A stretch of DNA of 64,000 nucleotides from Candidatus Poribacteria bacterium. Lineage in GTDB: Bacteria > Poribacteria > WGA-4E > WGA-3G. The notes beneath the pieces were generated by a model. The model worked only from the letters and a program-made list of their open reading frames with translations, was not told where the DNA came from and did no database searches. Below are positions 16,334 to 28,053 of this stretch, in pieces. The stretch covers positions 1 to 64,000 of the forward strand of contig JAPPBX010000095.1 of the NCBI GenBank assembly GCA_026702755.1. The letters run 5' to 3'. The number at the start of each line of letters is the position of its first letter. Within the stretch, counting starts at the first letter, position 1. Both the position numbers and the translations under genes were made by a program.

Positions 16334-16500
16334 GTCAACTACCCCGCGCTAAAGCGCGAGGCTTGTGTCAAACCGTCAAACAGCGATAACTGATTGGGGT
16401 TCTTCAAACCAAACGCTTCATTCGGGTTGTTTCTCGTTTCATAGAGGGTGGCAACCCACCGCTCTCCACGAAGGGCAGCAGCTGCCCTAAAGAGTATGTT
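16314..16500 (-). ncRNA. predicted omega-RNA with guide from HD-gene flank
   Basis: In TnpB elements the 3' end of the tnpB transcript is the guide RNA, and the guide is the DNA just outside the right end. By that rule the scaffold ends at ...GGGGTAGTTGAC (16334). The guide would begin GGTCCGATTGAAGCAGAAAA (16333 down to 16314). The 5' edge given here is arbitrary. Confidence 0.5.
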
Positions 16501-17610
16501 TATCGCAGCATTGTGGTCTCTGTCGATAGAGGCGCCACAAAACTGACAGTTAAAAGTGCGTATCGCCAACGCAACTTTCTTTGGCGACTTGATACCACAA
16601 CACGAGCAAGTTTGCGAGGTATGCTTGGGGTCAACTTGATGGAAGTGGAAACCGTCTCTTTCGGCTATGTTCCCAGCCCACTGAAAGAAGGTTGCCCAAG
16701 ACGCATCGCTGATACTCTTGCTGAGGTGTTTGTTCTGAACCATATTTGAGATTCTCAAATCTTCTGAAATGAGAACGTTGTTTTTCTGATGATGAAACAG
16801 TTTGAAAACCAATTTACCGATAAAGTCTTTGCGTTTGTTGCTTGTTCGCTCATGGTGTAAAGCGAGTTTGTGTTGCTGTTTACGCCAACGGTTACTTCCC
16901 AACTTCTTACGAGAGAGGTCTTTAGAATGTTTACGCGTCAGTCCTTCTGCTTGGCGATACCAACGCGGGTTGTCCTCTTTTTCGCCTTCGGAGGTCGTCA
17001 GATAGTGTGTTGTGCCGACATCAACCGCGATGGCATCGGTTGGTTCTACCTTCGGTGTATCGCCTATATCACAAGAGATGTGTGCGTACCAACCACTCGC
17101 TTTTTTAACGATTGTTACCTCTTTGGGATCGCCTTGAAGGGGGCGGTGCATGTATATCTTGACTTCGCCTAACTTTGGCACTTTTAAGCGATTGTGTCTA
17201 AAATCAGTTTCTATTATCGGATTTTGGCGGACACGTTCACCCGTCTTGAGTTTGTGCTTTCGCAAGCACCACGTCAGAGAACGGACACGCATTTTAAAGC
17301 GAGGGTAGCCCTTTTTCTCTGCTCCTTCTTTGCAACGCTTACGGAACGCATCAAAGGCTTTCTCAACGCGCTTGAGGACAGAAACTTGGAAATCTTGAGG
17401 GACTTCACGAAAGTCGTCATATTTCTCACGAGCAATCTTCAAAAGTTGTTCCTGGTCATATCGCGAAACAAAACGACCTTCTTCTTCGTGCGCATACTTG
17501 CGATTATTGCGCGCAGAATTCTGAAGTTCACAGAGGTGGTCAAACCACGCTAACAATGTTTGTTCCTGTGTTTGCGTAGGATACACAGGATACTTAAAGG
17601 TTAATCTCAT
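16339..17610 (-). CDS. tnpB: RNA-guided TnpB nuclease (IS605 OrfB family)
   Basis: A 423-residue TnpB, apparently intact. The RuvC residues are Asp197 (AVDVGT), Glu283 (LISEDLRI) and Asp363 (SIDRDHNAAINIL). The zinc ribbon cysteines are C335/C338 and C355/C358. The N-terminal RNA/TAM-reading region starts MRLTFKYPVYPT. The last seven codons (ASRFSAG) are encoded by the right-end hairpin and the stop lies in GGGGTAGTTGAC, so coding sequence and guide-RNA scaffold overlap. TnpB proteins cut DNA under an omega-RNA guide and help retain their transposon. The start ATG has no clear ribosome binding site but is the first after a structured leader. Confidence 0.93.
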   Translation of the reverse strand: MRLTFKYPVYPTQTQEQTLLAWFDHLCELQNSARNNRKYAHEEEGRFVSRYDQEQLLKIAREKYDDFREVPQDFQVSVLKRVEKAFDAFRKRCKEGAEKKGYPRFKMRVRSLTWCLRKHKLKTGERVRQNPIIETDFRHNRLKVPKLGEVKIYMHRPLQGDPKEVTIVKKASGWYAHISCDIGDTPKVEPTDAIAVDVGTTHYLTTSEGEKEDNPRWYRQAEGLTRKHSKDLSRKKLGSNRWRKQQHKLALHHERTSNKRKDFIGKLVFKLFHHQKNNVLISEDLRISNMVQNKHLSKSISDASWATFFQWAGNIAERDGFHFHQVDPKHTSQTCSCCGIKSPKKVALAIRTFNCQFCGASIDRDHNAAINILFRAAAALRGERWVATLYETRNNPNEAFGLKNPNQLSLFDGLTQASRFSAG

Positions 17611-17651
17611 GGACGTTCACGTATCACGCGTTTATCCCCTGACAAGTGGGA

Positions 17652-17698
17652 GGAAACCAGCACGTAACCGAGAGGCTACGCTTGTCATGCTGGTTTCC
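17652..17698 (-). promoter_or_regulatory. large hairpin in tnpB leader
   Basis: GGAAACCAGCA pairs perfectly with TGCTGGTTTCC (11 bp). Inside it CGTAACC pairs with GGCTACG, with one wobble. It begins within a few bases of the expected transcription start and ends about 40 bases before the tnpB ATG, so it would cap the mRNA 5' end. Confidence 0.7.
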
Positions 17699-17712
17699 AA
17701 CGTGATATGTAT

Positions 17713-17741
17713 ATTAAACCATATTTTCGCAAAAAAGTCAA
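17713..17741 (-). promoter_or_regulatory. tnpB promoter
   Basis: On the minus strand TTGACT (17741-17736) and TTTAAT (17718-17713) are 17 bases apart, inside the element and pointing to tnpB. Confidence 0.7.
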
Positions 17742-17820
17742 GTGTTTTTTATCAAAAACGCTACGGTCTAACACACGAGGACAAGCATTCCTCCCCGCCT
17801 TAAAAGGCGAGGCTTCCTGC

Positions 17821-27388: not shown

Positions 27389-27489
27389 TTGACACAAGTT
27401 GTTAAATTCGCTATCATATTTAGCGTAATCGGCAGCTGACTGCTGATTGCCATTGGAACTTTTCCTTTGCCAATTGTCACAACATTTGG

Positions 27490-27877
27490 TGATAGCACCC
27501 ACTACCTAAAGGTAGGGGCTTCGGCTTCGTAGACAGTGCGGTTTTCTCAAAGAGTAGACCGTCTTAATCCGTCTCCACCAGCAGGCGATTCCCCTTGGGT
27601 CAAAAAAGTTCCCTTGGGCATATCAAGTTAACACGTTCTTGGCTATCCCCGCCTGCCTCTCTCCGAAATGGAGAGAAAAGTTGAAGGTGAGACCGCAATA
27701 CAACGTGCAGGCTTTGACCTCTGCCCCGATTCACACTTTCGTGCAATTACGCGTCAACGGTCTCTTATACTTTTTAGGTGGTATTGACACCTGACACCAT
27801 TTGACCACCTCTTACCGTGGCGGATACCTCCTGCACAAGGTTTGTGCAGGGTAAGAGCGGTATCCAAGTGTCAGTAT
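27490..27877 (-). ncRNA. candidate structured non-coding RNA
   Basis: The first about 105 bases after a consensus promoter contain five perfect helices. P1 is 27868-27874 with 27791-27797 (CTGACAC/GTGTCAG). P2 is 27859-27865 with 27822-27828 (GGATACC/GGTATCC). P3 is 27842-27850 with 27830-27838 (CCTGCACAA/TTGTGCAGG). P4 is 27850-27857 with 27809-27816 (CTCTTACC/GGTAAGAG). P5 is 27804-27810 with 27776-27782 (AGGTGGT/ACCACCT). P4 crosses P2 and P5 crosses P1, so pseudoknots or alternative folds are possible. A further hairpin CTCTCC/GGAGAG lies at about 27658-27674. The 3' end is set at the right-end hairpin by analogy with omega-RNA. Confidence 0.5.
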
Positions 27878-27882
27878 TATTA

Positions 27883-27911
27883 ATTATACCACATTTTTAG
27901 GGAAATGTCAA
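27883..27911 (-). promoter_or_regulatory. perfect sigma70-type promoter for the ncRNA
   Basis: On the minus strand TTGACA (27911-27906) and TATAAT (27888-27883) are separated by 17 bases. There is no start codon with a good reading frame downstream, so the product is probably RNA. Confidence 0.8.
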
Positions 27912-28053
27912 ATGTTTTTTACTCACAAACCCAATGCCGGCCTACATCCCGCAAGCTGAAGCATGGGGTCTTGGCGGGAAGATTGGTAAGGTGGCGTGAA
28001 CGGAATTTAACGAGCCTTATCCATCCAATTGATGTCCATCGGAGGTATTCACA

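Follow-up and report, generated by a model that had tools for sequence, protein, structure and literature searches.

A protein-free IS200/IS605-type element of Candidatus Poribacteria with a pseudoknotted 5' RNA domain and an omega-RNA-type scaffold

The element and its insertion site

The window, a stretch of 64,000 nucleotides, is part of contig C95 of the 5.8-Mb genome of a sponge-associated bacterium. It carries a tnpB gene preceded by a leader RNA and a 497-nt element without a protein gene, which runs on the minus strand from 27985 to 27489. The main features, all on the minus strand, are as follows.

16339–17610, minus: tnpB gene, 423 aa, with PF01385 and PF07282 above the cut-off; a relative of the presumed trans partner
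17603–17714, minus: 5' leader RNA of the window's tnpB, homologous to the element's 5' module (model R2, E = 3.9e-15)
27469–27488, minus: flank in guide position, CAAATGTTGTGACAATTGGC; outside the element, matching the sequence after TTAC/T in the empty sites of relatives
27489–27985, minus: whole element, left end 27985, right end 27489; 12 empty sites and dispersed copies
27490–27657, minus: scaffold of omega-RNA type; its homologue in tnpB elements is the 3' end of tnpB together with the right end
27499–27518, minus: right-end hairpin, seen in the sequence and in conserved stems
27642–27647, minus: 5' strand of the scaffold pseudoknot, GATAGC, whose partner GCTATC lies at 27496–27491, the extreme 3' end
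27690–27763, minus: linker with helices P7, P8 (GAAA loop) and P9, which covary
27767–27877, minus: 5' RNA module, in which helices P2 and P3 cross (model R1 match of 112.8 bits; covariation)
27883–27911, minus: sigma-70 promoter, TTGACA-17-TATAAT
27986–27989, minus: TTAC, insertion target and expected target-adjacent motif, adjoining the left end

Both the span of the element and its insertion 3' of TTAC follow from empty sites in 12 relatives, and these replace the limits of 27990–27490 given in a preliminary description of this DNA. The uninterrupted site corresponding to the window's own locus reads CATCTTAC, or a close variant, and then CAAAAGTTGTGACAATTGG in these relatives, which puts the insertion point after TTAC/T with no target duplication. 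IS608 has the same mode of insertion, 3' of its motif and without duplication (PMC8612924). At a second locus (L044), the comparison with empty sites is blurred for some relatives by repeats in the flanks.

The same genome holds a second full-length copy on contig C107 (75% identity) and many loci with only the ends of the element, including one with a tnpB gene between those ends (C33:52024-53475). The whole unit recurs many times across 60 relatives, with element counts per genome being tallies from searches. We aligned 45 copies with MAFFT; the counts given here use 38 to 41 copies, among which related copies are counted many times. The left end adjoins TTAC or TTAT in 34 of 41 copies, TATCAC is the terminus of all 41, and their flanks are unrelated, with a mean identity of 25%. 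Units have no M-start open reading frame longer than 48 aa on the sense strand. The right-end hairpin of IS200/IS605 type noted earlier is present, and subterminal hairpins and ends are common to the element and its autonomous IS200/IS605 relatives. The element is a non-autonomous IS200/IS605-type mobile element. A Y1 transposase, TnpA, would mobilize it in trans, and four tnpA genes above the cut-off occur in the same genome.

The promoter matches the sigma-70 consensus at 12 of 12 positions with TG before the -10 box, as the earlier reading of a perfect minus-strand promoter had it, and is kept in most copies. Its context is 77% identical over 48 nt to that of the tnpB element (17713–17759), a resemblance that had likewise been seen before. 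From its position, the RNA is expected to start near 27876 on the minus strand.

RNA domains of the element

The 5' module is built from the following helices and strands.

27874–27868/27797–27791, minus: P1, conserved in 38 homologues
27865–27859/27828–27822, minus: P2, crossing P3, conserved in 38 copies
27857–27851/27815–27809, minus: P3, crossing P2, conserved in 38 copies
27850–27842/27838–27830, minus: P4, conserved in 38 homologues
27821–27817/27808–27804, minus: local stem, whose strands vary together
27784–27797, minus: B1 and B2, tandem strands that each complement strand A (27874–27868)

Five perfect helices of 7 to 9 bp fit within 27776–27874, against a mean of 0.26 and a maximum of 3 in 2000 dinucleotide shuffles, and the fold has a z-score of -4.5. 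The preliminary description had listed these five helices and called for a covariation check in homologues. All five are in the sequence, and four are conserved by compensatory changes in 38 homologues. Across these copies, P1 to P4 and the local stem have 93.4% canonical cells, and double-sided changes number 248 where shuffles give 78 ± 8.5; the covariation score of 0.536 compares with 0.197 when shuffled and at most 0.126 when the strands are slid. The fifth helix (27804–27810/27776–27782) was rejected, as it is paired in 65% of cells, no better than shuffles; its 5' strand covaries locally with 27817–27821 instead. One of the two crossings described earlier fell with this helix, while P3 proved to be a true crossing. 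The pseudoknot of P2 and P3 is well supported because the two helices are paired in 99.6% and 100% of cells, respectively, and cross each other. The pairing of strand A with B2 is less strict in the units (80.8% of cells); the order of B1 and B2 is preserved, and where copies have diverged most the strands have changed in concert.

At the other end, the 167 nt at the unit's 3' terminus align with tnpB elements over roughly the last 45 nt of the tnpB gene and the right end. The comparison of 3' ends suggested earlier finds homology that includes the 3'-terminal pseudoknot. Of the 42 sequences in which the scaffold stems and pseudoknot are kept, five come from tnpB elements; the pseudoknot is 100% canonical throughout the 42, with a G-C to C-G exchange in nine. 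Both pseudoknot subtypes of the units also occur in tnpB elements. In these alignments, each pairing of the 3' domain has its homologue in the omega-RNA scaffold of tnpB elements. Part of the conservation of this domain could serve DNA, since the stems are tied to ends that TnpA must recognize.

Between the two domains lies the linker, for which blastn finds no counterpart in tnpB elements. The 24 public stretches that contain its motif all derive from Candidatus Poribacteria, and IMG/VR has no exact match to it. The P9 loop, GGTGAAA, resembles the 690 loop of 16S rRNA, possibly by chance.

tnpB leaders and distribution

Model R1, built from protein-free units, also matches weakly about 1.2 kb upstream of right ends, and these matches are tnpB leaders with the same helix order. 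In 15 tnpB leaders of Poribacteria the structure is 99.4% canonical, and strand A (the 5' strand of P1) can pair with either B1 or B2, which lie in tandem; both pairings covary. B2 stands directly upstream of the tnpB start codon. In the window's own tnpB leader (17603–17714, minus strand), A, B1 and B2 form a switch-like arrangement. The units keep the 5' domain, but none of the 41 retains the ATG. Because this domain is kept both before start codons and where nothing is translated, translation control by itself cannot account for it; it must have a role that is independent of translation. The preliminary description had read the pseudoknotted RNA as a guide similar to an omega-RNA or as another new structured RNA. 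The unit does carry an omega-RNA-type scaffold, but the pseudoknot-capable part is the equivalent of the tnpB 5' leader.

With model R2, the leader RNA is absent from five tnpA-bearing loci, and it is so far confined to elements without tnpA. One of these five loci is a tnpA-tnpB element of the same genome (L125 380-1908, minus strand; G000:C87). The tnpB genes of this genome look intact, and the closest solved structures include ISDra2 TnpB. We found no report in the open-access literature of a tnpB leader pseudoknot, of Poribacteria tnpB RNAs or of stand-alone TnpB guides. The conserved tnpB leader is apparently a second structured RNA that is undescribed.

Strong R1 matches (E below 1e-10) occur in 22 of the 38 genomes of the genus and weaker ones in two more genera of the family, with none elsewhere (98 genomes). 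In the two other genera, the matched loci include protein-free units (L112-L123) that share the 5' pseudoknot domain and differ in linker, scaffold-like 3' part and right end. Most leaders matching R2 belong to this family, and a few to one further family. In a FastTree scaffold tree, built from short sequences, the state (unit or tnpB element) changes three times, against 15.9 in shuffles, so the protein-free state is old and diversified.

Possible mechanism and alternative readings

Since the unit has no protein gene and its RNA ends in a guide-RNA scaffold, borrowing of the DNA-cutting and DNA-moving proteins of its relatives is probable. We consider it likely that this is a non-autonomous element that lacks tnpA and tnpB, has kept the RNA and is served by TnpB and TnpA in trans. 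The left-end promoter would start an RNA near 27876, which would fold into the 5' pseudoknotted domain, the linker and a complete omega-RNA scaffold and run past the right end into the flanking DNA, so that the flank becomes the guide. In ISDra2, the TnpB guide is likewise taken from the right-end flank, and cleavage falls beside the insertion motif (PMC8612924). TnpB supplied by the genome's own tnpB elements may load the scaffold in trans and cut chromosome copies without the element, at TTAC plus the flank (target TTAC-CAAATGTTGTGACAATTGG). Repair of the cut copies would restore the element and lead to its retention, and TnpA, also in trans, would excise the element and insert it 3' of TTAC. 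The 12 empty sites have the layout of motif and flank expected for a guide target, and the flank at 27469–27488 may act as such a guide. The homologues support the earlier proposal of a protein-less unit with a promoter and a free-standing guide similar to an omega-RNA, the guide function itself being predicted.

If TnpB were simply borrowed, neither the 5' module nor the linker would seem necessary. TnpB is able to process its own RNA at the 5' end (PMC10278001). The 5' domain may protect or control the young RNA, whether by stabilizing its 5' end, by acting as an antitermination leader or by binding TnpB or TnpA, a tentative suggestion with roughly a one-in-three standing. A further, speculative possibility is that the 5' pseudoknot domain represents a new class of RNA, in which a conserved choice of pairing partner, one of two, operates independently of translation and allows an element with no protein to capture or control TnpB, TnpA or RNA polymerase. 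If so, the unit would be the bacterial counterpart of a SINE, an RNA-only transposon with its own guide.

If borrowing in trans is correct, a selfish element lives on a guide RNA alone, parasitizing the RNA-guided nuclease of its relatives. It would also be a natural case of TnpB-type guides acting in trans and of a guide RNA parted from its nuclease gene; such a separation has been proposed as a step in how CRISPR guides arose.

Alternatively, the unit could be an ordinary palindrome-associated transposable element (PATE), formed by internal deletion in a tnpB element, moved by TnpA in trans and carrying RNA folds that are functionless leftovers. PATEs derived from IS605-type elements have been described (PMC3119063), and L074 (898-1340) is a plain deletion derivative of this kind here, with a tnpB remnant and without the 5' strand of the scaffold. 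However, all three RNA domains show compensatory changes, tnpB elements lack the linker, and the lineages are old and separate, none of which would be expected of decaying folds; we regard this explanation as unlikely. Equally improbable, in our judgment, is that the RNA serves a partner other than TnpB (another nuclease acting in trans, the transposase or RNA polymerase) and reuses the scaffold, for example by competing for TnpB to regulate tnpB elements. The large 5' module and linker do exceed the needs of a guide RNA, and the 5' module is common to units and tnpB leaders; however, the scaffold retains every tested pair, including the pseudoknot beside the guide position, and both of the units' pseudoknot subtypes recur in tnpB elements. 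IS605-type elements with introns are known, and the crossing order P2a-P3a-P4-P2b-P3b resembles ribozyme folds, but a self-splicing or self-cleaving RNA (an IStron-like intron or an HDV-like ribozyme) is very improbable, as there is no match to an Rfam intron or ribozyme family at E up to 10 and the alignment shows none of the typical HDV junctions. In Rfam, the window, the unit and the tnpB leaders have no credible match and none at gathering score, the families IS605-orfB-I, HEARO and group I introns included. We dropped the HDV-like, group I intron and HEARO readings.

Several known systems come close to the unit. Similar to the omega-RNA (reRNA) of ISDra2-type TnpB, its RNA lies at the right end with a 3'-terminal pseudoknot, the flank is in guide position, and the insertion motif doubles as the expected target-adjacent motif; unlike it, the unit has no tnpB in cis and has its own 5' module and linker upstream. 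The ISDra2 pseudoknot joins the 3' end to a strand about 100 nt upstream (PMC10097598), whereas the arms are about 150 nt apart in the unit. The Rfam family IS605-orfB-I (RF03065), which takes its name from IS605 orfB genes, is likewise a structured RNA, but the unit, the window and the tnpB leaders all lack a match to it at gathering score. Stand-alone IscB omega-RNAs have been reported in Ktedonobacter. These are also guide-type RNA loci with no adjoining nuclease gene, but they belong to another nuclease family, have the guide at the opposite end of the RNA and lack such a 5' module. Like PATEs, the unit has IS605-type ends, no protein gene and no target duplication, and, being too short for a transposase gene, it falls within their definition (PMC3119063). 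The PATEs described so far are deletion products with fused ends, whereas the unit keeps a long promoter-driven RNA through compensatory changes. The deletion derivative L074, from which part of the scaffold is missing, is a natural contrast to the conserved units.
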